Of a stretch of DNA of 64,000 nt, positions 4,464 through 62,121 are shown piece by piece. This DNA comes from Marvinbryantia formatexigens (GTDB taxonomy: Bacteria > Bacillota > Clostridia > Oscillospirales > Ruminococcaceae). Both the position numbers and the translations under genes were made by a program. Under the pieces are notes generated by a model that saw nothing but the letters and a program-made list of their open reading frames with translations, was not told the DNA's origin and did not search any database. Each line of letters begins with the position of its first letter. Position 1 is the first letter of the stretch. The stretch lies in contig JAETPU010000013.1 of NCBI GenBank assembly GCA_021771035.1, positions 1 through 64,000 on the forward strand, in the 5' to 3' direction.

Positions 4464-5654
4464 ATGACTTATAAGCTCGATTTGTCTACCACAACAAATG
4501 ATGCCCCGATTATAAAAATTAAAATTTCTGACACTGAAATTTCGTTTCGTGTATTTTTCAGTACAGATTGCTGGAAAGTCATGTGCGATCGACATCAACA
4601 GGGCGATGATTACCGGACTGCTTTTACAAAAGTGGTTTTCCAAATGTACCGGCTAACAGCGGAAAAAAGCGCCAAAGTACTAAAAGAGGATGACTTCGTT
4701 GGCTTATCTGATAAAATATTGCGCTCTATTCTTAACGAAATCCTGAAACAGGACAAAAAAGTCCAATCAGAATATCACAGTATACAGACCGAGGATGTCT
4801 ATGAGCGTTTCTATCAAGCCAATGAAACTATAATGAAGAATTTGAAAATAGGAGTTTCAGAGATACTTGAAAGGGCATTAAAAAAGTCTCTAGTGCCAAT
4901 AACGGGAATCATCGAACAAACTACTCAAGCATTACGAAGTCCTTTTCAGCAATTGGAAGAATCCATTCGTTCTTCCACGGACTCCTTACATTCCTTTTTA
5001 CTTGATTATCGCTTGCGCTCGGCCCAAAACAGAGAAATATTATTAAAATATGGTTGGTTTCTCTCAGACGAATTTCCCATCCATATCGTCAACCATATAT
5101 ACAATAACCGAGCGTCATTAAATGCCGGAGCGGTAGATGCAATTATTTGCAGCTATTTTCGAAGGAACCGATGCGAAGCTTTAAAAAACATGGTTAGTAG
5201 TTGGAAGGAATTACCACACTTTGCTTGCCGGAAAATAATCTTTCATGAGGCACTTGTCCATCATTCAAGGGGATATTACAACTCGTCTGTAACTCTATTA
5301 ACCTTACATATGGAAGGCATATTTAGCGATTTTGTAAGAACGAATTTAAACTGTTCTCGTTACCGTGTGAAGCAGGCGATAAAAGATATACAGGCGGAAC
5401 TGGAAAAGAATCCTGATGTCTCAATTTCTGAAGAGGACGCATTCAATTTTATTGCAAGAATCTTAACGGAAGGCTTCCACTTCGATAATCCTGATGATGC
5501 TTCAGACCAATCGCGAGATAAAATCGCTCATGGACATGTCTACGAAAAAGAAAGTGAGTCCAATTCATTGAAGCTTTTTTTGTCTCTAAACGAAATGTTC
5601 CATGTTCTCCCTCTGTTGAGCAGTTCAAACTGTACATCGGAAACGGAGTCTTAA
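4464..5654 (+). CDS. HEPN-type protein, possible defence or stress RNase
   Basis: 396 residues, clearly AT-richer than both flanks, which suggests transfer. I do not recognise a named family. The N-terminal ~150 residues are mixed; residues about 115–190 are strongly helical. The C-terminal third is an all-helical domain with GYYNSSVTLLTLHMEGIF, a pattern typical of HEPN proteins. Near residues 351–356 comes RDKIAHG, matching the HEPN R-X4-6-H RNase motif. HEPN RNases with this motif occur in abortive-infection, toxin–antitoxin and CRISPR systems. Here the gene is alone, with no antitoxin or nucleotidyltransferase beside it. A terminator follows at 5785–5826. The HEPN call is fairly secure; the defence role is inference. 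Confidence 0.6.
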   Translation: MTYKLDLSTTTNDAPIIKIKISDTEISFRVFFSTDCWKVMCDRHQQGDDYRTAFTKVVFQMYRLTAEKSAKVLKEDDFVGLSDKILRSILNEILKQDKKVQSEYHSIQTEDVYERFYQANETIMKNLKIGVSEILERALKKSLVPITGIIEQTTQALRSPFQQLEESIRSSTDSLHSFLLDYRLRSAQNREILLKYGWFLSDEFPIHIVNHIYNNRASLNAGAVDAIICSYFRRNRCEALKNMVSSWKELPHFACRKIIFHEALVHHSRGYYNSSVTLLTLHMEGIFSDFVRTNLNCSRYRVKQAIKDIQAELEKNPDVSISEEDAFNFIARILTEGFHFDNPDDASDQSRDKIAHGHVYEKESESNSLKLFLSLNEMFHVLPLLSSSNCTSETES

Positions 5655-5784: not shown

Positions 5785-5826
5785 AAAAGCGTGTGGGCGG
5801 CCCGAGTGCTTCCCACACGCTTTTTG
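5785..5826 (+). terminator. Rho-independent terminator after the HEPN gene
   Basis: Perfect stem aaaagcgtgtggg/cccacacgctttt with a 14-base loop and a following T run. It lies 130 bases past the HEPN-type gene and faces the convergent butyrate kinase gene. The A-rich left arm would also let it act on the other strand. Confidence 0.85.
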
Positions 5827-51967: not shown

Positions 51968-52018
51968 AGGTACCCCTGCAACAGAGCTTCCGATTTCAGA
52001 GAAGGCCGGTGCGTTGAA

Positions 52019-52450
52019 CTAGTTTTCTATATCATTGAGCACACATAGTGTTCCAAGCTGGGCGTCCCCCAGTTTACTCAGCTTTTTCCCGAATTTCTCA
52101 ATTAGCCCAAGTTCACTGTAAACATAAAAACAGCATCGGTGTGCCCGCTTATCATTATCGGCTATCTCCAGATCCACTTCAATTTTTATATGCCCGGCAC
52201 GATCTATGGGTAAAAACTCCAAAGAAAAAGCCGGGGTATAATTGCCATCCTTTTTTCCAAACTCAATATAACATCCATTTTTGTAGTCACGGATGAATTC
52301 AGAAAATGTTTCAGAAAGACCCTTTAAAAAATGGGGATCCACATAGCAGTACTGATATGCTGTTACAAACTCAGATTCGGCTGTTACCTTCAGCTCGATT
52401 ACAGTCTCGTCACTCCAAGTTTTTTCTATCAGGATATTACTATCTGCCAT
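52019..52450 (-). CDS. Immunity protein, duplicate of the active cassette's
   Basis: 143 residues, almost identical over the first ~120 to the immunity protein at 59689–60120. They differ at two residues in the middle (SEFIRDY against SGFINDY) and then through the last ~15 (QLGTLCVLNDIEN against EIGKICILNDCVF). The sequence resembles WapI-family immunity proteins (WSDETVIELKVTAESEF, GKKDGNYTPAFSLEFLPIDR), but that family call is tentative. Ribosome site ttggaggag is identical to that of the other copy. It is the last gene of the array and is preceded by a decayed copy of the matching toxin end. It would protect against the intact toxin or close relatives. Confidence 0.8.
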   Translation of the reverse strand: MADSNILIEKTWSDETVIELKVTAESEFVTAYQYCYVDPHFLKGLSETFSEFIRDYKNGCYIEFGKKDGNYTPAFSLEFLPIDRAGHIKIEVDLEIADNDKRAHRCCFYVYSELGLIEKFGKKLSKLGDAQLGTLCVLNDIEN

Positions 52451-52545
52451 TTTTTCTCCTCCAAACTTTTAAAATCAGCAAAGGATTTGTCCGTTTCTTA
52501 AAATTAGCAGTTCATCCTTTTATCAGCGTTCCAAACTACGGAAAC
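52451..52545 (-). pseudogene. Decayed toxin end homologous to the intact toxin
   Basis: Directly before the immunity gene at 52019, the bases read RTNPFADFKS in one frame, matching RTGAFDDFKY at the end of the intact toxin at the same distance from its immunity gene. Frameshifts and stops prevent a product. It shows that the cassette was duplicated with its toxin and the toxin then decayed. Confidence 0.65.
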
Positions 52546-52592
52546 GATGCTGCCTCAGGAACCGCCCAACATACCTATTTTTATCGGTTCGT

Positions 52593-52883
52593 TTAAACAC
52601 CCGTTTCCCGGGGTGACAGGTTTTCTCTAACTCTCCGAGCTCTGTCAAAAATTTCCTCTTTAGAATAATACAGATTGGGAATTGAGAGTTCCTCCCTATC
52701 TGCCGTAAATCGACCCGCCATATCGCACAAATCGCTGAATTCACGATTTTCCAGTTGAGTTAGTTGTGTATAGTCGGTTTCTAAGTTGTAGATTCTGGTG
52801 AATTCCATACAGAAGGTTTTAATATCGTAGGACTCGTCTAAAAGCCCAACAATTAAATACCATAATTGTTCTTGTACCGTCAT
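52593..52883 (-). CDS. Small colicin-immunity-like protein
   Basis: 96 acidic residues, all helical by appearance (YLIVGLLDESYDIKTFCMEF, then ENREFSDLCDMAGRFTADRE). The pattern resembles the bacterial self-protective colicin-like immunity family, but this is from memory of the pattern only. It sits in the same run of minus-strand immunity genes. Upstream, between 52884 and 53034, a short frame reading PSSKNAKKQYYETKYG before a stop may be the tail of its former toxin. The ribosome site is ggaaagg. Confidence 0.55.
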   Translation of the reverse strand: MTVQEQLWYLIVGLLDESYDIKTFCMEFTRIYNLETDYTQLTQLENREFSDLCDMAGRFTADREELSIPNLYYSKEEIFDRARRVRENLSPRETGV

Positions 52884-53034
52884 AATATTCTATTACCTTT
52901 CCGTATCCGATATTTTAGATAAACCGCCTGTGGATTTCTTCAACACCCGTATTTCGTTTCATAATATTGCTTCTTTGCATTTTTAGACGACGGGGTTCAT
53001 CCATCCGCACTAAGGAATTTTACAATATTCTTTG

Positions 53035-53472
53035 CTACCAATTAGCCTGTTCAAACTCTTCCGTGTCCAATTCTTTGATGTATACCGATATCCATCTGAC
53101 TGTATTTGTCTGTGCATCCATTTCTATAAATACCCCTTTTATGGATTCCCAGGTTTCCTCAAAATCATCATATATAAAACTCGGTTCTGCTTTCAGCATT
53201 TCTTCTTCCGTTGTTCCTATTGTGATAGTTCCAAACAGCGTTCCTCTATAGTCATCCAGGGTTGTGATGCGAAATAACTTTTGATTTTCGCGATGAAAAT
53301 ACAATTCTATGCAATTTTGGATATCATATCTTATCCAATTACCATTGATAATACAACAGGTACTATTACTAAGTGATAAAATATCCCTCAATTCATCAAT
53401 GGTACTATATAGTGTGATTCTGCCTAATCCGACAAACGGAATAATCGGTGCTTCATTTTGTATCAAAGTCAT
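53035..53472 (-). CDS. Probable immunity protein, family not recognised
   Basis: 145 residues, acidic, beta-rich, beginning TLIQNEAPIIPFVGLGRITL and ending VYIKELDTEEFEQANW. The repeated pattern LYSTIDELRDIL and TIGTTEEEMLKAEPSFIYDD is typical of immunity proteins of the SUKH-unrelated, DUF-type, but I cannot name it. It starts 7 bases after a toxin-tip remnant (53480–53705), with ctggagg as ribosome site, so its identity as an immunity gene rests mainly on context. Confidence 0.6.
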   Translation of the reverse strand: MTLIQNEAPIIPFVGLGRITLYSTIDELRDILSLSNSTCCIINGNWIRYDIQNCIELYFHRENQKLFRITTLDDYRGTLFGTITIGTTEEEMLKAEPSFIYDDFEETWESIKGVFIEMDAQTNTVRWISVYIKELDTEEFEQANW

Positions 53473-53479
53473 CCTAATT

Positions 53480-53705
53480 TCCTCCAGAAAAAATAATTGC
53501 CGCAGTTTCTGAGTGCGTCTGCAGTTTCTTCAGCCGTCTTTCCGCAAAGGCTTTTGGATAAGCCTTGATATCATCGATAGAAACATTCCCTTCCCTAATT
53601 ATGGCAGCGAGACTATCCCCACCCGCCCCGCTCTTCGGTACTCCGGCCCTTTGTGGGCTTGCTACACTCCCGTGATGACGTTTGCCAGATAGAAGGAGCC
53701 GGGCC
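53480..53705 (-). pseudogene. Toxin remnant: conserved linker plus truncated tip
   Basis: The upstream half matches the intact toxin at DNA level: FYLANVITGV corresponds to FYLASVITGV of the intact protein, and QRAGVPKSGAG is identical to its linker. One inserted base, a TAG and an ~16-base deletion break it. After the shared linker the sequence is unrelated to the intact tip: GDSLAAIIREGNVSIDDIKA, then YPKAFA, and, after a one-base frameshift, GKTAEETADALRNCG. The latter is a recognisable toxin-domain start cut off by a stop just before the immunity gene. It is a fossil of tip exchange at the linker. Confidence 0.75.
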
Positions 53706-53795
53706 AGATGCTCCGGAATTTTTTAATAATCGAGTTATCACCGAATCAGGGAATGGAGTATCAAAATTACTATGGAGTAAGAGAGTATTGGTACC

Positions 53796-54275
53796 CTATT
53801 GAATCGTTGAAATATATGCCTCTAAATCTTCTGCAAGGGGATAGCCTTTTTTCAAGCCATCGATAACACTGTCCTGTTCACTAATAAAAATCGTTGCGGT
53901 ACTGTCCCAGGCAACAATTTCTATGTGAGCAGACGGATGATAAATGGATACCGGCTTCTTCCATAGGTCAGCATAGACTGCTGATCCTGAAATATCATAT
54001 TGCAGAACCTCCTGTTTGGAAACCTGCCTGTCAAAAGCAAAAAGAATTCCCCATATCCACTGAAAATCTTCATTCTCTATCATTTCCGTCAGGAGTTCAC
54101 CAGAGAGCCAGCAATAATCCCCGGCTAATATTTTTTTGTACTCCTCATTCTGGGGATAACATTCATGTCCCAGAATCAGCCAATTATAGTTTTTTTCAAT
54201 ATGGCTGATCGTGTGGAATATCTTTTTGAGATGGGTAAAGTAGGGCTCCCCTTGATCGATCATAGCGCCTTTCAT
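53796..54275 (-). CDS. Probable immunity protein (159 aa)
   Basis: 159 acidic residues beginning KGAMIDQGEPYFTHLKKIFH and containing NYNWLILGHECYPQNEEYKK and EDFQWIWGILFAFDRQVSK. The layout, a short protein comparing intake around a 'NWLI' strand, reminds me of DUF2691 proteins, which occur beside toxins; the match is tentative. The start codon overlaps the stop of a toxin-tail remnant (ATGA), which is the strongest evidence for its role. Confidence 0.6.
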   Translation of the reverse strand: MKGAMIDQGEPYFTHLKKIFHTISHIEKNYNWLILGHECYPQNEEYKKILAGDYCWLSGELLTEMIENEDFQWIWGILFAFDRQVSKQEVLQYDISGSAVYADLWKKPVSIYHPSAHIEIVAWDSTATIFISEQDSVIDGLKKGYPLAEDLEAYISTIQ

Positions 54276-54415
54276 AGTTTCACTCCTTCAGTTACGTACT
54301 TCTTATCGGAGTGCTGCCTGTCCAATCCCAACCAGGTTTCATAGGGGGCTCTTAATTCCACGTTCAAGTCCGGCTGCCAGCACTCATTGTGTGACACTCC
54401 CAGCAGATGCTGTTT
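54272..54415 (-). pseudogene. Orphan toxin tail coupled to an immunity gene
   Basis: An open stretch of 47 codons after an in-frame TAA reads SHNECWQPDLNVELRAPYET and WLGLDRQH, then KYVTEGVKL and TGA. It is protein-like and ends overlapping the immunity start by ATGA, as a toxin C-terminus would. It has no start codon or ribosome site of its own, and a promoter lies immediately upstream, so it is probably not translated as a toxin. Confidence 0.6.
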
Positions 54416-54417
54416 TT

Positions 54418-54447
54418 AGTATAAGAGGCGGATGGGAACTGCGTCAA
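54418..54447 (-). promoter_or_regulatory. Cassette promoter (copy 1)
   Basis: On the minus strand, TTGACG (54442–54447), an 18-base spacer and TATACT (54418–54423). The same hexamers and spacing, with related flanks, recur at 59567–59596. It would transcribe the tail remnant and the immunity gene at 53796. Confidence 0.7.
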
Positions 54448-54483
54448 TGGTTTTCTTGCTCATCCGCATTATTGTTCTAAAAA

Positions 54484-54512
54484 GAAAAGTGCCCCATAGG
54501 ACGCCCAAAATA
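54484..54512 (-). terminator. Degenerate cassette terminator
   Basis: On the minus strand, gggcgtcctatggggcac followed by TTTTCTTTTT. It is a weakened version of the cassette terminators at 56344, 58744 and 59624, located after the immunity gene at 54594. Confidence 0.6.
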
Positions 54513-54593
54513 TTTGGTACTGGATTTTAGATAACTGGGGGATACTTTTTTATCATGATAGTCCACCTGAATTTTGGAGGATCTAAATTTCTA

Positions 54594-54911
54594 TCATAAT
54601 TCATCAAAGTCAATATCATTTATTACAACGCAATCATCCCCTACTTTGTTTCTTAGCAACCGTTCTAACCGAAAAATATCAGTTTCAAAGGCGGCTTTTT
54701 CCGCAGAGGTCAGAAACCCCCGATACTGAAATGCATGGCTGTCATTCTGAAATAAACTGTCATACTGTTCCTGTATTTTTACACATAAAGGGTCTAATTC
54801 AATATCTCCTATCAGGGTATCTGGCAGTTCATTGAATATCAAGTTCTCATCTTCATCATACTCCCAAACGGGAAAGCACTGATACTCCAATGCTAGCTTT
54901 AACTGATTCAT
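54594..54911 (-). CDS. Probable immunity protein, YxiF-like pattern
   Basis: 105 residues from the ATG at 54911, which has aaggagacg upstream; the frame continues to 55067 over a degenerate terminator and is not used. The sequence LALEYQCFPVWEYDEDENLI and SLFQNDSHAFQYRGFLTSAE matches a pattern I know from small immunity-type proteins of Bacillus toxin loci, but without a firm name. Highly acidic C-terminus (VVINDIDFDEL). It stands between other immunity genes on the same strand. Confidence 0.65.
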   Translation of the reverse strand: MNQLKLALEYQCFPVWEYDEDENLIFNELPDTLIGDIELDPLCVKIQEQYDSLFQNDSHAFQYRGFLTSAEKAAFETDIFRLERLLRNKVGDDCVVINDIDFDEL

Positions 54912-55021
54912 GGTATCGTCTCCTTCCTTGCTGGAAGTTGGGTTTATGTCAACTATAATCCGTTTTCTGAAATAATGATTACTGCCTATAACGATATGAC
55001 AATTATTGTTAATGAAAAACC

Positions 55022-55046
55022 GGCCCCGATAGAGGCGCAAATTTGC
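55022..55046 (-). terminator. Degenerate cassette terminator
   Basis: On the minus strand, gcgcctctatcggggccgg followed by TTTTTC, 25 bases past the immunity gene at 55071. It is followed by tatcgttatagg, the same bases that follow the other cassette terminators. Confidence 0.6.
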
Positions 55047-55070
55047 CGAAGCGATAGGCTCTCTCATCCG

Positions 55071-55436
55071 TCAAGAAATTGGATTATCAGACCGTATCCT
55101 AAACGTTTTACATAGAATATGCAGTTCAATCGGAAATAGATTGATTCTAAATTGCAGAAAATTCATCTCATCGATTCTTATCTCTTCAACCTGAACATCC
55201 TGCATAAAATATGGGAGCTGATTGCGGGTTAGTTCCTTTGAAGAATTGATTTTAGAGTATTCTATCGAGTGTTTAATTTGAATCTGATAGCAATCTTCAA
55301 AGTGGTAAACCACGTCGATATCTCCATCCTCAAAGACTAAATTTACTTCATCACCGAAATTACTACAATCCAGTTTCTTTACCCTTGCATCCCAATAATA
55401 ACTGCTCTCAATTTGTTTGATTAAATCTGTAATCAT
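55071..55436 (-). CDS. Probable immunity protein (121 aa)
   Basis: 121 residues from the ATG at 55436 (aaggagagt upstream). Sequence: MITDLIKQIESSYYWDARVK at the start, then VNLVFEDGDIDVVYHFEDCY and a beta-rich C-terminus. I do not recognise the family. A toxin-tail remnant lies 90 bases upstream and a cassette-type terminator follows, so context supports an immunity role. Confidence 0.6.
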   Translation of the reverse strand: MITDLIKQIESSYYWDARVKKLDCSNFGDEVNLVFEDGDIDVVYHFEDCYQIQIKHSIEYSKINSSKELTRNQLPYFMQDVQVEEIRIDEMNFLQFRINLFPIELHILCKTFRIRSDNPIS

Positions 55437-55528
55437 AATACTCTCCTTGGTTCCGATAGGCATATGTCCGTCAGGACTCCCGCAAACAACAGGATTGTCC
55501 GATATATCCAGAAGATTTCCTTCCTAAA

Positions 55529-55619
55529 CTACAATCTTGGATTTACTGCGATTACTTTTCCAGACGGGTTTATTGCCGCCGTGACCTCTACAGTCTGATG
55601 GAGAAGTGTTCGGAAATTT
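55529..55619 (-). pseudogene. Toxin tail remnant, VITVIPR family, copy 1
   Basis: About 30 codons reading RTLLHQTVEVTAAINPSGKV and IAVNPRL, then TAG. It matches the tail at 59192–59434 (RTGTFVHQTVEVTAVVNSSG, KVITVIPR). It is truncated directly after the stop of the immunity gene at 55620, so only the very end of the toxin remains. Confidence 0.75.
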
Positions 55620-56030
55620 TTATGTGAAGTCTTCATGTATGACATCGTTTACTTGTATTAAATTTTTCCTGGCAACTTTAAATAGGTGTTTTTCCGCATT
55701 ATTTCTTCCTTTCAATTGAGTATTGGAAATATAGTAAATATCATTATTGGAAACCACTTCAGCGAATTGCGTATTTCCGATGATAACATTTTCCCTGTTT
55801 ATTGAGATTTCTATCACTTTATCCTCAGAAATTTCCATAAATTCTCCCAGGAGTCCAATTTTACAATTGTATATTCCTCCCAGCTTCATAAATTCAAAAT
55901 TGTGGCCATCGCTTATTAATGCGGAGTCATCAAAGCATAAATCTTCTGTATTGGTATCGAGACTTTGAATTAAAACATCGCGCGTCATCATCGCTTCCGT
56001 TATTGCTTTTAACTGATACAAGGCAAACAT
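55620..56030 (-). CDS. Probable immunity protein (136 aa)
   Basis: 136 residues, beginning FALYQLKAITEAMMTRDVLI; the middle is beta-rich (GIYNCKIGLLGEFMEISEDK, VIEISINRENVIIGNTQFAE). It has no family I recognise. Ribosome site ataggaaagg lies upstream, and a frame-damaged toxin tail ends 20 bases before the start. The stop is followed at once by another toxin-tail fragment. Confidence 0.6.
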   Translation of the reverse strand: MFALYQLKAITEAMMTRDVLIQSLDTNTEDLCFDDSALISDGHNFEFMKLGGIYNCKIGLLGEFMEISEDKVIEISINRENVIIGNTQFAEVVSNNDIYYISNTQLKGRNNAEKHLFKVARKNLIQVNDVIHEDFT

Positions 56031-56049
56031 CCTTTCCTATTTTTCAATT

Positions 56050-56194
56050 CTAATCTATCGGATAAAGATTCCATGGATCCATTTGTACCGTATGCAGCCC
56101 CATCCCTGTTTTCATTCATAACATAGGCGGCAAATAAGCCATTCGAACTTTTGCCTATTTTACTGGTGTAGTATTCATCGTTTGAGAGAAAAAC
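56050..56194 (-). pseudogene. Frameshifted toxin tail
   Basis: Two frames together give SNDEYYTSKIGKSSNGLFAA, YVMNENRDG, then after a shift GLHTVQMDPWNLYPID and TAG. The last motif is protein-like and typical of a toxin end. It lies directly before the immunity gene at 55620. Upstream (56215–56245) a stretch atcaaaactgctcc matches one at 59436, showing a shared, recombined core segment. Confidence 0.6.
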
Positions 56195-56309
56195 CTATGT
56201 AAAACAATTGATTTACCTATCAAAACTGCTCCCAAGATGGCGTTTCTTCAGAACTGAGGATTTGGGATAAAGTCACACATCCCCAAAGGCGTAGACCTCA
56301 AGGACAGTA

Positions 56310-56370
56310 AACTTACCTATAACGATATTACAACTATTCCAGTAAAAAAGAAAGCACCCCGATGGGGCGC
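56310..56370. repeat. 61-bp perfect cassette-linker repeat, copy 1
   Basis: The 61 bases from aacttacctataacgatatt to accccgatggggcgc are identical to 58708–58768. On the minus strand it is a terminator (stem gcgcccc/ggggtgc, then TTTCTTTTTT) followed by a conserved AT-rich tail. Confidence 0.95.
56344..56370 (-). terminator. Cassette terminator after Imm74-like gene
   Basis: On the minus strand, gcgccccatcggggtgc followed by TTTCTTTTTT, about 110 bases past the gene at 56482. Identical to the terminator at 58744–58768. Confidence 0.9.
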
Positions 56371-56481
56371 AATCAATCAATAAACATTTTTAATTATTAT
56401 CGTACCCTGGATTCGTTGAGTATTCTAAGTTCATCGGGTAAAATCTGTTTTAGAAGTATTCCAATGATTTCATTATTTACC

Positions 56482-56715
56482 CTACTCAAATATGATTGGT
56501 ATTGTATTTTCATCGCTGCTTAATTTTACTTCCTTTATGATATCGGCAATCTGTCCTTCTGTAACGAGTTCATCTTCATGTGGAGGTTCCCAGGATTTCA
56601 TTGAATCTTTATAAACTATAAATTTTTTTCCGATCAGCCTCTCCCCCTCTGCCTTGAGAATATATCCATTTTCAAGATCAAATTTAATATAATAAGAACT
56701 ACCAGTAATTTTCAT
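56482..56715 (-). CDS. Imm74-family immunity protein
   Basis: 77 residues matching the pattern of immunity protein 74: ITGSSYYIKFDLENGYILKA, then IVYKDSMKSWEPPHEDELVT and a hydrophobic end (TIPIIFE). These proteins neutralise nuclease-type polymorphic toxins. It starts 32 bases after the frame at 56747 ends, with cgaaagg upstream, so two immunity genes lie side by side here without a toxin remnant between. A terminator repeat follows. Confidence 0.75.
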   Translation of the reverse strand: MKITGSSYYIKFDLENGYILKAEGERLIGKKFIVYKDSMKSWEPPHEDELVTEGQIADIIKEVKLSSDENTIPIIFE

Positions 56716-56746
56716 TATCGCGTTTTCCTTTCGAATATAATTTTCT

Positions 56747-56897
56747 CTATCCCTGTTTTGGATCTATAACGGTTATTTCTGTGATTTTCGGGTTCGCTTT
56801 CAATCTAGGAAGCTCTGCATTTTCCCATATGTTGCCGGGCTTTAACTCTGTACCAATCATCGACATCATAGAGGGCATATGTTTCTCAAATCTGAAA
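56747..56897 (-). pseudogene. Continuation of an immunity frame after a frameshift
   Basis: After the stop of the gene at 56898 the neighbouring frame continues for 50 codons: FEKHMPSMMSMIGTELKPGN, then IWENAELPRLKANPKITEIT and DPKQG. It is clearly protein-like. Either a one-base shift split a ~120-residue immunity protein, or this is the remnant of a further gene. Confidence 0.5.
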
Positions 56898-57119
56898 TCA
56901 ACAAAATTGTTCATAGATAAATTGACATGCATCTTCTTCAGATTCAAATCTCTCATTTGTTGTCTTGGTTCCTCTCTCGATAACGTAAACATACCACTCA
57001 CCATTTGTAAATTCCAAACAAAAACGCTCATCCATCCGTCCTTCACCATCCAAATTATAGAACATTGGTGATACTCCCATCCGTTTCAGCGTGTGCAGCA
57101 GCTCATTTCGTGTCATCAT
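56898..57119 (-). CDS. Small immunity protein after a TNT-like tail
   Basis: 73 residues: TRNELLHTLKRMGVSPMFYN, LDGEGRMDERFCLEFTNGEW, then a YVYVIERGTKTT strand and an acidic C-terminal helix. This pattern occurs in small immunity proteins of Firmicutes toxin loci (about 75 residues, ending like the EEDACQFIYEQF here). Its start overlaps the stop of a TNT-like toxin remnant by ATGA. Two ATGs stand in tandem at the start. The adjacent frame beyond its stop is also protein-like, so it may be the first part of a broken longer gene. Confidence 0.6.
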   Translation of the reverse strand: MMTRNELLHTLKRMGVSPMFYNLDGEGRMDERFCLEFTNGEWYVYVIERGTKTTNERFESEEDACQFIYEQFC

Positions 57120-57250
57120 TTTATCTCCCTCAAAAACATATTTTTTACGAGTCGATTGACTGTTGCCGGCAACTCGTATTGCAGTCCTCCGCCTGGTTAA
57201 TCAAAAGCCTCCGCGATTTCAGACAGCGATAGTACAACGACTGTATTTGA
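57116..57250 (-). pseudogene. TNT-like (NADase) toxin tail with a nonsense codon
   Basis: Reads LSEIAEAFD, TAA, then PGGGLQYELPATVNRLVKNM and FLREIK. TNT-type NAD+ glycohydrolase domains end with a Gln-Pro-Gly-Gly-(G/A)-x-Gln-Tyr motif, so the TAA stands exactly where that Gln (CAA) is expected: a single C-to-T change. The upstream part of the domain is decayed. It ends overlapping the following immunity gene. Confidence 0.65.
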
Positions 57251-57340
57251 AAAGGAAACACACCGGTAAGGGCGCGACCTGATTTCTGCGATATTCGGCT
57301 CTTTCTTCTATCATTGGAAAATACAATGCTGTACCTGTAA

Positions 57341-57877
57341 TCACATAAAATCCGACCAAAATGGAATGGGGCGAATATCAGAAAACTCTATCTCGGATTG
57401 CTTTTTCTCTCCAAATTCCACCTCAAAATAATCCTTGAGATTTTTACCATAATAGATAATATCGATACCATGGATTGACAGTATTGGCGGGTTTTTATCA
57501 GGTACAATTGGCATATATCTGTGTATATAAATTGGTAATAGTCTGGGGGCGCTTTTTAATCGTGTTTTTATGGCATAATTTTTATCTTCCGGTTCGTTTC
57601 CCCAGATGTCACACCAATCTATCTCCTCTGCCATATCTTCAATAGTAGTTGCGGGGCTTTCCATGACTTGCTTTATAAATTCAATATTCTCCCCTGTAGT
57701 ATTGCGCCAGTTATAAAAACCTTTTGATACGGGCAATGCCAGCATCAAAAATTCTCGTATACTTTGTGGAAAGGTAAATTCATAAATAGCTTCTATCTGG
57801 ACTACTTCGTCAGAGGTAAGTCCTGTATCAAATTTAATTCCTTGTGATTTTAACAAGTTTAGACTACCTATATCCAT
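57341..57877 (-). CDS. SMI1/KNR4 (SUKH-1) family immunity protein
   Basis: 178 residues with the SUKH-1 layout: GLTSDEVVQIEAIYEFTFPQ and SIREFLMLALPVSKGFYNWR at the N-terminus, then LLPIYIHRYMPIVPDKNPPI and SIHGIDIIYYGKNLKDYF. SUKH proteins are the commonest immunity proteins of bacterial polymorphic toxins, mostly nucleases. It starts 16 bases after a barnase-like toxin tail, consistent with protection from an RNase. The ribosome site is ttggag. No toxin with an intact matching tip is present in the window. Confidence 0.88.
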   Translation of the reverse strand: MDIGSLNLLKSQGIKFDTGLTSDEVVQIEAIYEFTFPQSIREFLMLALPVSKGFYNWRNTTGENIEFIKQVMESPATTIEDMAEEIDWCDIWGNEPEDKNYAIKTRLKSAPRLLPIYIHRYMPIVPDKNPPILSIHGIDIIYYGKNLKDYFEVEFGEKKQSEIEFSDIRPIPFWSDFM

Positions 57878-57892
57878 TTGTTTTACTCCAAT

Positions 57893-58009
57893 CTATTTTA
57901 TTCTCCTAAAGGTATTATAATAGTCATTTGTATACCAAACCGAACCATCTTCCCCGAATACAAGTCTTCCGGTACCGCCTCTGCTAGTCTTTAACAAAAC
58001 CGTGGTTAA
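57893..58009 (-). pseudogene. Barnase-like RNase tail, catalytic His replaced
   Basis: 38 codons, starting right after the stop of the preceding immunity gene: LKTSRGGTGRLVFGEDGSVW, then YTNDYYNTFRRIK and TAG. This matches the end of barnase-type RNases (…RILYSSDWLIYKTTDHYQTF). The catalytic His of DHY is Tyr here (NDYY). There is no start codon, so it is a fossil of the toxin whose partner is the SUKH protein at 57341. Confidence 0.72.
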
Positions 58010-58522
58010 TCAGATGCTTTTTACCATATTTATCTCCTGCACAGATAAATCACATACCGCAAACCCGATTATGTTGTTCATCATATCAACATAAACTTCA
58101 ATTCTATCAGTTCGATAAGCTTGTTTGATTTCTGGACTGTCTGCAAAGAAACAAAGTAATTTGTTTTTTTGTAGACATATTCTATAATTTCCTGAAATGT
58201 CAATAAAGTCATTCTTATGTTGAAATCGGGGCGATTCATCAATCACTACATTTCCATTAGCAACATCGACCTTAATTTCCGGCCATTCAACTATCATAGT
58301 TGAATCGAGATAAAAAGTGATGCTCGCCAAACAGTGGCTTTTACAATCGATTCCTATTTCCAACGGAGGTATCCCCGTAACCTTTGTTAATCTCCAGTAA
58401 CTTGGAATGGAATCAAAAGGCAACTCATTTGTAATGGATATCATTATTAGATCATCAACGATTTTTTCAAAACAAATCTCTGTTTTCGTTTCCTCAACAA
58501 TATCTTTTTTCATCAGATACAT
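58010..58522 (-). CDS. Probable immunity protein (about 170 aa)
   Basis: 170 residues from the ATG at 58522 (gaggaggttg upstream); the frame is open to 58591 over a toxin remnant. Begins YLMKKDIVEETKTEICFEKI, then LPFDSIPSYWRLTKVTGIPP and a long beta-rich part with ESPRFQHKNDFIDISGNYRI. I do not recognise the family. Context (toxin tail immediately upstream, same strand, AT-rich) supports immunity. Confidence 0.62.
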   Translation of the reverse strand: MYLMKKDIVEETKTEICFEKIVDDLIMISITNELPFDSIPSYWRLTKVTGIPPLEIGIDCKSHCLASITFYLDSTMIVEWPEIKVDVANGNVVIDESPRFQHKNDFIDISGNYRICLQKNKLLCFFADSPEIKQAYRTDRIEVYVDMMNNIIGFAVCDLSVQEINMVKSI

Positions 58523-58533
58523 TTTCAACCTCC

Positions 58534-58695
58534 TCATTGATGCAACGCGTGGTATACTACACCGGTATCTCCATTTATTCCAATTTCCCAACCATTAATA
58601 TTAAAAAAGTTCCTTCCTGGGTGAACTTTTGTCAATACATAGGAATTCGGCTCTTGAAAACTAATCCTCAATTCATTTTCAATGAGACGCAGATC
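58534..58695 (-). pseudogene. Orphan toxin tail before an immunity gene
   Basis: 53 open codons after an in-frame TGA: LRLIENELRISFQEPNSYVL, TKVHPGRNFFNINGWEIGIN, then GDTGVVYHALHQ and TGA. It is the longest undamaged tail of the array. There is no start codon; it begins 13 bases from the cassette repeat at 58708–58768, and its stop lies 11 bases before the immunity start. The toxin family is not recognised. Confidence 0.62.
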
Positions 58696-58707
58696 TCAAG
58701 TAAAATG

Positions 58708-58768
58708 AACTTACCTATAACGATATTACAACTATTCCAGTAAAAAAGAAAGCACCCCGATGGGGCGC
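58708..58768. repeat. 61-bp perfect cassette-linker repeat, copy 2
   Basis: Identical to 56310–56370 over all 61 bases. Degenerate relatives lie near 54985–55046. Confidence 0.95.
58744..58768 (-). terminator. Cassette terminator
   Basis: On the minus strand, gcgccccatcggggtgc followed by TTTCTTTTTT, about 80 bases past the immunity gene at 58851. Confidence 0.9.
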
Positions 58769-58850
58769 TTTCCGGTTTGAGAGAGTGCGGCGTTGCGTAT
58801 TCAGCATCTCGCCAGTTTCAACGTGTTTTCGGTTCAATCAAATTAAGTCT

Positions 58851-59180
58851 CTAATTCCTCTCATAATTTTCGATGATAACCCCCAAGCAAGGAGACTTCT
58901 TGATGACTATTCTCTTATGTTCTTCTGTTTCCACAAGCAAAGTATCATTTCTTTTTTTAATCTCAAGAATATTTTGAAATTGACTTGAAAAAACGATTTG
59001 ATTCTTATAATTTATCGAAATATGAATGATTCTGCTGTAAGCATCCACTGCCATGGTCATGGAAAGTTCTGTTCTATCTTTGGTAGAGTATATTAGTCGA
59101 TCTTCTTCAATTGCCCCAACTGAAATTGCCTCATTTTCAAAAAAATCCAACAAATCCAAATCATCAAATCTAATAAACAA
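58851..59180 (-). CDS. Probable immunity protein (109 aa)
   Basis: 109 residues from a TTG at 59180 with taggagg upstream. Sequence: FIRFDDLDLLDFFENEAISV, TMAVDAYSRIIHISINYKNQ, and a basic end (KKSPCLGVIIENYERN). I do not recognise the family. It lies 11 bases after the stop of the toxin remnant at 59192, on its own promoter (59567–59596) and terminator (58744–58768), so it is a complete expressed unit. Confidence 0.62.
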   Translation of the reverse strand: MFIRFDDLDLLDFFENEAISVGAIEEDRLIYSTKDRTELSMTMAVDAYSRIIHISINYKNQIVFSSQFQNILEIKKRNDTLLVETEEHKRIVIKKSPCLGVIIENYERN

Positions 59181-59191
59181 TATGTTTCCTC

Positions 59192-59505
59192 CTATCTCGG
59201 GATTACTGTGATTACCTTTCCAGATGAGTTTACTACTGCCGTGACCTCTACAGTCTGATGGACAAATGTTCCCGTTCTGCGTCCTGGAGTTGCAGCGGTA
59301 CTATTGATAGCATCTTCTATCACTGATGGCGGTATATTTCTGAGATCGACATAATCCTGAAAAAATCGATAGTAGTCTAACGTACCAACTTGATACCCTT
59401 TGGACTTTGCACGTTGTTCTGCCCTTCTTACCCATCAAAACTGCTCCGAAGGCAGTGGTAATTTGGGCGTAAGGGACTTTTTGATAAGTCCGGGGCAGAA
59501 AAACC
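59192..59505 (-). pseudogene. Toxin core fragment joined to a VITVIPR-type tip
   Basis: Upstream, GLIKKSLTPKLPLPSEQF matches GLIKRSLMPEEPLSLEHW of the intact toxin core; a TGA follows. Then 80 codons are open: WVRRAEQRAKSKGYQVGTLD, YYRFFQDYVDLRNIPPSVIE, DAINSTAATPGRRTGTFVHQ, TVEVTAVVNSSGKVITVIPR and TAG. This is the most complete alternative tip in the array, probably a nuclease by its ending. The linker AGVPKSGAG is missing, so the junction arose by deletion. Related to the tail at 55529. Confidence 0.75.
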
Positions 59506-59566
59506 AATCGATTTTCAAAGCTGCTTTTAGTAGTCATTACAGGTTTTTTCGATAGTTGATTCTTAT

Positions 59567-59596
59567 AGTATAAAAGACAATTTGGAATCACGTCAA
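59567..59596 (-). promoter_or_regulatory. Cassette promoter (copy 2)
   Basis: On the minus strand, TTGACG (59591–59596), an 18-base spacer and TATACT (59567–59572); same as copy 1 at 54418–54447. It would drive the tip remnant and the immunity gene at 58851. Confidence 0.72.
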
Positions 59597-59623
59597 TGGT
59601 TCCCAGTCCGCCTATTATGGCAC

Positions 59624-59653
59624 TGAAAAAGAAAGGCGCCCCATAGGGGGCGC
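59624..59653 (-). terminator. Terminator of the intact toxin–immunity cassette
   Basis: On the minus strand, gcgccccctatggggcgcc followed by TTTCTTTTTC, 35 bases past the immunity gene at 59689. A cassette promoter follows about 30 bases later. Confidence 0.9.
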
Positions 59654-59688
59654 AAACTCTTTTCGAGAGAGTCGGAAACTGTGGTTGT

Positions 59689-60120
59689 TTAAAATACACA
59701 ATCATTTAATATACATATTTTCCCTATTTCAGCGTCCCCTAATTTACTCAGCTTTTTCCCGAATTTCTCAATTAGCCCCAGTTCACTATAAACATAAAAA
59801 CAGCATCGGTGTGCCCGCTTATCATTATCGGCTATCTCCAGATCCACTTCAATTTTTATATGCCCGGCACGATCTATGGGTAAAAACTCCAAAGAAAAAG
59901 CTGGGGTATAATTGCCATCCTTTTTTCCAAACTCAATATAACATCCATTTTTGTAGTCATTGATGAATCCGGAAAATGTTTCAGAAAGGCCCTTTAAAAA
60001 GTGGGGATCCACATAACAGTACTGATATGCTGTTACAAACTCAGATTCGGCTGTTACCTTCAGCTCGATTACAGTCTCGTCACTCCAAGTTTTTTCTATC
60101 AGAATATTACTATCTGCCAT
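59689..60120 (-). CDS. Immunity protein of the intact toxin, WapI-like
   Basis: 143 residues. It overlaps the end of the toxin gene by 11 bases (start at 60120, toxin stop at 60110), with aggagg as ribosome site, so it is translated together with the toxin. Beta-rich sequence: WSDETVIELKVTAESEFVTA, GKKDGNYTPAFSLEFLPIDR and HIKIEVDLEIADNDKRAHRC. The match to WapI-family immunity proteins is tentative. Binding to the toxin tip is inferred from position. A near-identical duplicate is at 52019–52450. Confidence 0.82.
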   Translation of the reverse strand: MADSNILIEKTWSDETVIELKVTAESEFVTAYQYCYVDPHFLKGLSETFSGFINDYKNGCYIEFGKKDGNYTPAFSLEFLPIDRAGHIKIEVDLEIADNDKRAHRCCFYVYSELGLIEKFGKKLSKLGDAEIGKICILNDCVF

Positions 60121-61543
60121 TTTTTCCTCCTATATATTTAAAATCATCAAAGGCACCTGTTCGTACATTATAATTGAAATGGATTGTTACCTTACTGCCA
60201 TCTAACAATGTACTTGTTTTTTGCATCTTTATCCATCCCTCTGAAATAGGCCATCTTGAATCTTGCAGAGTTAAAGGTACTTTTATTGCTCCCGGAAGTG
60301 GATTTGATTGTACTTCATGCATAATCATTTGTTCGTTCAAATTTTTTGGACTGACTCTCCCTGTACTACCTCTTCCTTCAATTTTTACAGAATTTCCAAC
60401 CCCACTGTTTCTGTTTATCTTACCCGCCCCGCTCTTGGGCACACCGGCCCTTTGCGCCTGCACCGCCTTCGCAGTTTGAGATACTCCCGTGATAACACTC
60501 GCCAGGTAGAAGGAATTGAGCCAATGTTCCAACGACAATGGTTCTTCGGGCATAAGGGACCTCTTGATTAGCCCGGTGAGGCCCAAGGTGAGCCAGTTGA
60601 GAATAGTCTCAAAATTAGGTTCCTTCAACATCTGCTCCGCATTTTGTCTGAGAGAGTTCCAGATACCGCTGAAAAATCCTAAGGTTGCCCAATCTAAATA
60701 ATTGCCAGATTCATTGCCTGCCTCTAAACGCTGTTGCTGTGCTGTCCAAAATTGCTCCATCATCTCCTTAAAATCATCCGGGATTCGCAGAATCGGATCA
60801 TACCAGTTGGTTTTCAGCTGGGGATGGCTGTCCAGCACATTGCCCACAGGCACCAACCGGCAGCCACAGTGGGGATGAATGGCGGGAAGAAGATTTTTGT
60901 CCATGAGCTGCTGATAGGTGTATGTTACGTTTTGGTGCTGCTTACACGCAGGACACGCGCCGTCATCCACGATAAACTGATACTTTACCTGGTAATCCCG
61001 TGTGCTTTCCAGAAGCTGCTGCCAGGCGCTGCGCTCATAATACAGGCATACATACACATTCAGCGCCTTTGCCCTGCGCTCAAAGATCTCCTGAAGCGTT
61101 TTGGCAAGCTGGGAGGGGGAAGTTGCCCGAAGAAGGCCAAACTGCACCTGCTCCCGCATTTCCCTCGAGGTATTTTCCAGAAAACGGTCAATCTGCCTAT
61201 TGAGCTCCTGCCGAATACGCTCAGGGCCCTGGGCCATGCGCAGAGGCTCGGCATATGCCTTAATACTATCATACAGTTGCGCGTTTAGATAGTCCTTTTT
61301 TACCACCGATCCCCGTTCAAGCAAAGCGGCCTCCCTCTCGCCGGACGCAGGCGGAATCAGGCTGCGTTCCTGCTGGTTCAAGATGGTGTTGGCATCGGAT
61401 AACACCTCCTTTGAAGATTGTTTTTTCTCCGCCGTGCCCACAGCCCCTGGCAGACAGTTCAGATAAAACCAGGCGACCTTCTGGGAGATCGCCTGCTTGC
61501 TCTGGCTGATAAGACCCGGCAGAATATGGGTTTCGTCTTTCAA
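60110..61543 (-). CDS. Polymorphic toxin, MuF-like core with RNase-type tip
   Basis: 477 residues from a TTG (61543) behind aaaggagc. Residues 1–190 are helical. Residues about 165–235 have the metal-binding pattern of phage Mu gpF-like minor head domains: DDGACPACKQHQ (Cys197, Cys200) and HPHCGCRLVPVG (His223, His225, Cys226, Cys228). A hydrophobic pretoxin region (WATLGFFSGIWNSL, LTLGLTGLIKRSL) leads to the linker QRAGVPKSGAGK. The tip (about 400–477) reads NLNEQMIMHEVQSNP, DSRWPISEGWIKMQ, IHFNYNVRTGAFDDFKY, like the C-termini of Bacillus LXG toxins YobL and YxiD. There is no signal peptide and no LXG domain, and no secretion genes are in view. A LexA-type operator overlaps its promoter. 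Confidence 0.8.
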   Translation of the reverse strand: MKDETHILPGLISQSKQAISQKVAWFYLNCLPGAVGTAEKKQSSKEVLSDANTILNQQERSLIPPASGEREAALLERGSVVKKDYLNAQLYDSIKAYAEPLRMAQGPERIRQELNRQIDRFLENTSREMREQVQFGLLRATSPSQLAKTLQEIFERRAKALNVYVCLYYERSAWQQLLESTRDYQVKYQFIVDDGACPACKQHQNVTYTYQQLMDKNLLPAIHPHCGCRLVPVGNVLDSHPQLKTNWYDPILRIPDDFKEMMEQFWTAQQQRLEAGNESGNYLDWATLGFFSGIWNSLRQNAEQMLKEPNFETILNWLTLGLTGLIKRSLMPEEPLSLEHWLNSFYLASVITGVSQTAKAVQAQRAGVPKSGAGKINRNSGVGNSVKIEGRGSTGRVSPKNLNEQMIMHEVQSNPLPGAIKVPLTLQDSRWPISEGWIKMQKTSTLLDGSKVTIHFNYNVRTGAFDDFKYIGGKNGR

Positions 61544-62121
61544 TTCACTGCTCCTTTCCGAACATTTTTAAAAAGAACATTTGTTCTTTATGGTATTATA
61601 GAGATCTGCCGGGGCTCTGTCAAGCCTTTTGGGCACTGGATGACGATTATTTTTGGACAAAAGTTTTTTTGCCGGAGCCGTTGCGAGCAGCCTTTCATCG
61701 TTGCATCATGAAGATGGAAACACTGCCGGCGGACAAAAATTGTATCCCGTAAAATATGCATCCTTCCTAAAATTCGAAAGAAATCATTGCATCTTTGGCT
61801 TTTCTTTCGGTTTTTATCACATCTGAGGAGTCCCGTTTTCATCAAAAACCTAACGCAGCGAGTTTGGGTTGATACCCATGTATCAAAATAGTATTCAACT
61901 ATCGTCCGGGTTTGCAAGAAACATAATACTATTTTTCATCGTTCAGTCCTGTCTATGGCGCGCAGCCGGGATTCACAGAAGGTAGCGCTCGCGGTTTTCG
62001 GGGTATGGCCCCATTGGGCTGCAGGCGCGAGCAGGACAACCTGCTGCTCAGAGATGGGGAAGGGGAGAGAAGCCAATCCGGCACGGCAGGATACCGTAGA
62101 GGTTCGAAAAATCTTGTATCG
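61544..62121. other. Gap with the toxin promoter
   Basis: 580 bases between dinB and the toxin gene. The right part has no gene. At the left, on the minus strand, TATAAT (61595–61600) is followed by a LexA-type box (61575–61586) and the ribosome site of the toxin. A frame of 109 codons at 61588–61917 has no family character. Confidence 0.6.
61575..61586 (-). promoter_or_regulatory. lexA box: LexA-type operator of the toxin gene
   Basis: GAACATTTGTTC (GAACAAATGTTC on the gene strand) fits the Gram-positive LexA core GAAC-N4-GTTC. It lies 8 bases downstream of a TATAAT, hence at the expected transcription start, and 31 bases upstream of the toxin start. dinB has the same arrangement. Confidence 0.8.

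Follow-up and report, generated by a model that had tools for sequence, protein, structure and literature searches.

A solitary AT-rich gene of Marvinbryantia formatexigens encodes a predicted HEPN endoRNase with relatives beside restriction-modification genes

What does a lone AT-rich gene do between GC-rich neighbours in Marvinbryantia formatexigens, and does it act by itself? The window analysed here is a stretch of 64,000 nucleotides (contig JAETPU010000013.1, positions 1 to 64,000). The gene is an intact ORF on the forward strand (4464-5654, ATG start) and its translation is a protein of 396 aa, referred to as P0001. The initial annotation had proposed a stand-alone HEPN-type protein of foreign composition which could be a single-gene phage defence system. 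Overall, this putative 'single' defence gene of one genome became readable through its relatives. The features identified are as follows.

4464..5654, + strand: HEPN-domain gene, predicted endoRNase effector (ORF, composition and full-length relatives)
4464..4913, + strand: N-terminal domain (about residues 1-150; beta hairpin 16-29 and helices), unnamed, predicted sensor or adaptor (profile A8 and AlphaFold)
4842..5009, + strand: short helical linker (residues 127-182; alignment A6), mostly at pLDDT <50
5010..5651, + strand: C-terminal domain as modelled (residues 183-396; AlphaFold on alignment A14)
5208..5630, + strand: HEPN core (about residues 249-389; VIA-align 2)
5514..5531, + strand: predicted catalytic motif R351-D-K-I-A-H356 (R and H conservation)
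5785..5825, no strand assigned: terminator-like hairpin with a T run, 3' of the P0001 gene (by eye; 14-base loop)

The gene in the window and its surroundings

The P0001 gene had a GC content of 0.386 (38.6%) and a GC3 of 0.376 compared to a GC content of 0.560-0.624 and a GC3 of 0.694-0.782 in four neighbouring genes, in agreement with the AT-rich gene amid GC-rich neighbours described in the initial annotation. The upstream flank was a GNAT acetyltransferase gene (GC 0.624) on the same strand, ending 47 bases 5' of the P0001 gene, and the downstream flank was an acetokinase-family gene on the opposite strand. The hairpin at 5785..5825 was absent from the scanner list; its 14-base loop exceeds the loop limit of the scanner. 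No R-M gene was found beside the P0001 gene in the window, and the three N6_Mtase matches of its own genome were all on contigs other than that of the window.

A search of the own genome showed no second copy of P0001 at an E value of 1 or better. Among 197 genomes of the same family (own genome included), three others were matched with E values of 0.005-0.009, two of which read as RpoA, the third being L002; no relative was confirmed in the 196 other family genomes searched. The foreign composition together with this distribution point to a gene acquired from outside. No empty site could be identified, since besides the own genome only one of 20 relatives combined GNAT and acetokinase-family matches (at the limits used), and these were on different contigs.

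Two other regions were also recorded. An AT-rich block at 52000-61550 of the window (GC about 0.36-0.45 in 1 kb steps) encoded a protein of 477 aa that matched Phage_Mu_F weakly (24.8 bits, under the cut-off of 29.6). Numerous small ORFs were present on its strand, two of which (52019-52450 and 59689-60120) are almost identical copies of 143 aa; judged by eye, the block resembles a polymorphic toxin accompanied by an immunity gene array. In addition, a type I-like R-M locus was noted in the own genome, on a contig other than that of P0001 (G000:C3:235150-238637, equal to L083 7151-10638), where the R-M genes were named by eye except for the N6_Mtase match. Two AT-richer ORFs are located there between the hsdM and hsdS-like ORFs, one nucleotidyltransferase-like (CBASS-like) and the next a small membrane (SLATT-like) protein as judged by eye.

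The C-terminal domain and its R-x4-H motif

P0001 alone produced weak matches with Pfam, PHROGs and PDB sequences (best values of 0.037, 0.059 and 0.23, respectively) and none with NCBIfam and PADLOC. A Pfam search of P0001 and 20 relatives with the C-terminal domain showed nothing above the model cut-offs except the SEC-C motif of the L011 protein, and PADLOC on the relatives gave echoes of that same motif. A PADLOC match of the relative P0002 to Cas12u1 (0.0026) was taken as chance and rejected. Profile A7 of the C-terminal domain found nothing credible among PDB sequences, and literature searches of open-licence PMC papers brought up no description of the family.

AlphaFold on residues 183-396 with 28 rows produced an all-helical model with a mean pLDDT of 90.0 and a pTM of 0.88. 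In the Foldseek search of the PDB with this model, the top three rows were HEPN proteins, but with E values of 0.25-1.1, and no match of the search reached 0.001. VIA-align 2, run on the candidates of Foldseek, gave the HEPN protein 2hsb as the best match (rmsd 2.9 over 118 aligned residues, model residues 68-205) with a Z score of 8.8, which by the caveat of the tool itself is within chance reach of helical bundles. Within rows 1-27 of VIA-align, 10 carried HEPN in the title, 10 were HEPN-MNT pairs, Csm6, AbiV, AbiA or HepS, and seven had titles of neither sort. We take the second group to be HEPN proteins as well. From row 28 onward, rhodopsins and other helical proteins appeared with Z scores of 5.5 and below (about 5). 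For the whole of P0001 (13 rows), AlphaFold modelled the C-terminal half mostly poorly and residues 11-120 fairly well, and Foldseek on this whole-protein model showed nothing meaningful.

The motif RDKIAH (residues 351-356), placed by the initial annotation in a helical C-terminal domain, was indeed within the all-helical model. By itself, the motif is not above chance and its weight comes from conservation only; shuffled P0001 sequences contained 0.80 R-x4-H on average, with at least one in 56% of the shuffles. A second R-x4-H is also present in P0001 (RKIIFH at residue 256); by eye, only eight of 13 A6 rows keep it, namely the closest. In alignment A6 (the window and 12 relatives), R of RDKIAH was found in 13/13 rows and H in 12/13, the exception being L053 with Y. 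Both residues were found in all 19 rows of A7, which left out L053, L057, L058 and L059. In A14 (28 rows, all being the window or search results of related loci), R was kept in 28/28 and H in 27/28, and the residue after R was H, N or D in 28/28. The A14 rows are not 28 independent events since some are near-duplicates, with L057-L059 being 95-98% identical to L056. The P0001 family in A14 fits the pattern of the HEPN superfamily, R-x4-6-H in which R is followed by a polar residue. The family member at L053:4639-6042, where the predicted catalytic His is replaced by Tyr (RHEVAYG), is possibly an inactive copy.

Based on the predicted fold and the conserved motif together, the C-terminal domain of P0001 is very probably a HEPN domain. 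Neither of the two findings that, according to the initial annotation, would speak against its HEPN assignment was obtained, as the model had HEPN topology with solved HEPN domains as best matches and R and H were conserved. The family belongs to a known kind of protein and is absent from the model libraries searched.

Relatives, gene neighbourhoods and the N-terminal domain

With P0001 alone as query, no related loci were found in genome contigs or viral contigs. A tblastn search with P0001 gave weak matches to gp127 of SPbetaL1 and to a Cytobacillus plasmid protein, and the search with gp127 matched P0001 in its own genome with an E value of 2e-8. Among 391 genomes of the class (own included), profile A2 matched 11 and P0001 matched 10, some weakly, while among 398 genomes of the phylum (own included) profile A7 matched six. 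Alignment A5 found 14 loci in genome contigs, mostly from Clostridia and MAGs, and none in viral contigs. These 14 loci and L040 (G350) made up the 15 related loci discussed below. The closest full-length relative was L048. The tree of the C-terminal domain joined the window to L047, L048, L049, L051, L052 and L054 as a starred group of seven members without a firm inner order. L054 has no N-terminal domain; in L047, an unread base of the contig breaks up the N-terminal part, and L060, located where its contig ends, is a fragment. The family gene of L050 (7175-8675) and L051 is split alike into two overlapping ORFs; these are from two MAGs of different assigned taxa, and the two stretches were identical over the 6 kb compared.

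The C-terminal domain alone was found more widely, in SPbeta-type phages, plasmids and viral contigs. Wider-family members without annotation were observed at L007:3950-4663 (phi3T gp86) and L008:3986-4684 (the BUCT082 counterpart), in both cases with the arbitrium genes aimR-aimP a few genes further downstream. A protein of a Hymenobacter monticola plasmid (L011:4794-5675) combined a SEC-C motif with the C-terminal domain and was encoded in a BREX operon, with pglX and pglZ on either side; the protein has the C-terminal domain only in common with P0001 and forms a long branch of unsure place. A short distant member at L075:5304-8027 was located, as judged by eye, beside macro-domain-like and ADP-ribosylglycohydrolase-like ORFs with a sirtuin-like ORF nearby.

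An R-M neighbourhood was present in nine of the 15 related loci (L048, L050, L051, L055-L059 and L040), which correspond to about three independent arrangements. At L055-L059 and L040, hsdM was directly downstream on the same strand with gaps of 25-188 bases and was followed by hsdS. Further on, L056-L059 had hsdR-like ORFs, and a GmrSD-type ORF was present in L057, L058, L059 and L040. At L048, a 472 aa ORF followed on the same strand; an MTase/S-like gene, HsdM and HsdS came after it, starting at about 2 kb. At L050 and L051, the first family ORF shared a 17-base overlap with an MmeI-type gene, and a PLD-domain gene was located 32 bases downstream. Pfam confirmed HsdM, HsdS and HsdR in L056, HsdM and HsdS in L048, MmeI and PLDc_2 in L050 and GmrSD in L058, and HsdM of L055, L057, L058, L059 and L040 was 87-99% identical to that of L056; all other neighbours were named by eye. 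Inspection by eye revealed no R-M gene in the stretches of L047, L049 (a contig of 4.5 kb), L052, L053 and L054, where Pfam was used for the neighbours of L052, which were HATPase, SAP and DUF6710 genes instead. Since nine of the 15 related loci were in R-M neighbourhoods, the natural unit of P0001 may exceed one gene, with the copy in the window possibly orphaned. The single-gene system of the initial annotation is a candidate reading of a gene that is solitary in the window.

Profile A8 matched 4464-4913 with an E value of 1.3e-57, the window itself being a row of A8, and residues 11-120 were modelled as a beta hairpin and helices with block means of pLDDT 70-92. Most full-length relatives have this same second, N-terminal domain. 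P0001 carries both domains in one protein, with 46% identity to L048 over residues 5-140 and 48% over residues 146-387. The linker of P0001 is shorter than in the other full-length rows (total protein length 396 aa compared to 452-554 aa for the others in A6 and L040). When viral contigs were scanned with a pattern of the N-terminal domain, no relative was confirmed. The N-terminal domain may serve as a sensor or adaptor.

At L044:7095-8075 (G249), a 326 aa protein carries the N-terminal domain (45% identity with its L056 counterpart over 159 aa) and ends in one hydrophobic helix (residues about 289-314), read as a transmembrane helix, instead of the C-terminal HEPN domain. P0001, L048 and L056 had no stretch over the hydropathy limit used for L044. 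The gene for HsdM, confirmed by Pfam, is 198 bases downstream of the L044 protein gene and its product is 91% identical to the HsdM of L056. When L044 is compared with the HEPN-bearing loci, the N-terminal domain apparently keeps its place while the C-terminal part is exchanged, on the strength of one clear case only. A second ORF with the N-terminal domain and without HEPN, in L043 (G259), ends early and may be broken.

Proposed role, alternatives and comparison with known systems

The best explanation, with a probability of about 0.6, is that P0001 is a HEPN endoRNase and abortive-infection effector which was acquired horizontally, is R-M-coupled in relatives and is solitary here. Counted for an R-M-coupled effector were the HEPN model, the kept R and H, R-M genes in nine of 15 loci, the distant relatives in BREX, phages and plasmids, and the foreign composition. 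Counted against it were the lack of an adjoining R-M gene in the window, five of 15 loci with no R-M gene seen, the change of H to Y in L053, the chance of a helical bundle at Z 8.8, the lack of a PDB sequence found by profile and the unmatched full-length model. The role in phage defence put forward in the initial annotation draws its support from context only, namely the R-M and BREX neighbours and the phage-borne distant relatives.

For the mechanism, we infer the RNase activity, dimer, autoinhibition, trigger and defence phenotype of P0001 along the following lines. The HEPN half would dimerise and the dimer would cut RNA via R351 and H356, metal-independently. The N-terminal domain and the helical linker would keep the nuclease silent until a trigger, the most likely one in relatives being that the R-M enzyme encoded next to them fails or is engaged, as for a PrrC-like guard. 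The window copy may act alone on another phage cue or may guard a distant R-M system, and the type I-like system on another contig of its own genome could still be served by such a freed guard. Freed P0001 would then cut RNA and growth would stop. A tentative, on balance doubtful extension is a modular R-M guard, in which the N-terminal domain, encoded just upstream of hsdM, would sense the state of the R-M enzyme and the killers (HEPN in most loci or membrane helix in another) would be exchangeable, the window copy being the freed guard of an unlinked type I system or having a new target. If the best explanation is right, the family offers one case in which near-identical hsdM genes are preceded by apparently swapped effectors (RNase or membrane helix), and sensing of R-M failure by the N-terminal domain would become directly testable.

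P0001 could instead be an anti-phage system of one self-sufficient gene like Tha, where the N-terminal half senses a phage protein and the R-M genes are mere neighbours in defence islands. The solitary gene in the window, L047, L052, L053 and L054 with no R-M gene seen beside the family gene, the distant relatives carried by phages and VIA-align row 26, which is HepS bound to lambda J, are consistent with this, as is the similar layout of Tha-1 with its C-terminal RNSIMH (PMC11087260). However, the tight arrangement with hsd and MmeI genes and the C-terminal part swapped between near-identical hsd loci fit R-M coupling better than co-residence, and Tha-1 and the family shared only chance-level BLASTP pieces, so that this explanation is considered unlikely. 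A decaying orphan, i.e., an acquired R-M accessory gene which lost its operon and is now functionless, would account for the absence of an R-M neighbour and for the shorter linker (protein length 396 aa compared to 452-554 aa), and some related copies do look broken (L050/L051 split in two ORFs and L053 without H). The ORF of P0001 is, however, intact with both domains and with R and H kept, and decay is judged improbable. The least probable by far is the toxin of a toxin-antitoxin pair, with an antitoxin gene elsewhere or the neighbouring GNAT gene as antitoxin. HEPN toxins of HEPN-MNT pairs were close structural matches and the GNAT gene is on the same strand, 47 bases before the P0001 gene, but it is GC-rich (0.624) as the other neighbours are, no GNAT gene was noticed beside the relatives in the ORF lists by eye, and neither a nucleotidyltransferase nor a small partner gene was noticed by eye beside the P0001 gene.

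The preferred reading, an R-M-coupled HEPN effector, was compared with known systems. HEPN-MNT toxin-antitoxin pairs differ in that no adjacent nucleotidyltransferase was seen by eye among ORFs of at least 80 aa near P0001. Tha is described as a HEPN RNase activated by phage tail proteins (PMC11087260). Tha-1 of Staphylococcus phage 80alpha resembles P0001 in its C-terminal HEPN domain with an R-x4-H motif (RNSIMH) and in an N-terminal part for which no known domain is described there, and differs in being prophage-borne and activated by phage tail proteins (PMC11087260). Homology to Tha-1 found no support in BLASTP, which gave only chance-level pieces against P0001, P0002 and L014 with a best E value of 0.11; with P0001 there was only a 19-residue piece, at the motif (E 1.8). 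Stand-alone HEPN modules have been reported in BREX loci (PMC12839542), and the distant relative of Hymenobacter monticola with SEC-C and the C-terminal domain between pglX and pglZ resembles such auxiliary HEPN RNases.

HEPN RNases are described as metal-independent enzymes with an R-x4-6-H motif (PMC3710099). In the same source, at least 16 HEPN clades are tied to R-M systems and are proposed, on the model of PrrC, to be suicide effectors of a second line of defence (Anantharaman et al. 2013; PMC3710099). The P0001 family resembles these clades (AbiJ solos, ApeA, EC042_2821, pEK499_p136 and others) in having the HEPN gene near R-M or Pgl genes, but the Pfam HEPN models were unmatched by P0001 and the 20 scanned relatives. 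P0001 could therefore not be assigned to one of the clades, and the family may be a diverged part of one. PrrC itself is kept inactive by the R-M enzyme PrrI and is freed when phage T4 inhibits PrrI (PMC3710099). P0001 is similar to PrrC, which goes with the type Ic system PrrI, and to RloC in its predicted C-terminal HEPN RNase domain, and prrC is located among hsd genes as are several of the P0001 relatives (PMC3710099). In contrast to PrrC and RloC, P0001 showed no N-terminal ABC-ATPase, as there was no such Pfam match and the N-terminal domain model is a hairpin with helices of about 120 residues, and its gene is outside an hsd operon, with hsd genes near the relatives L040, L048 and L055-L059. 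If this reading is true, the family adds to the known systems an R-M-linked HEPN effector with an unnamed regulatory domain in place of the ATPase.
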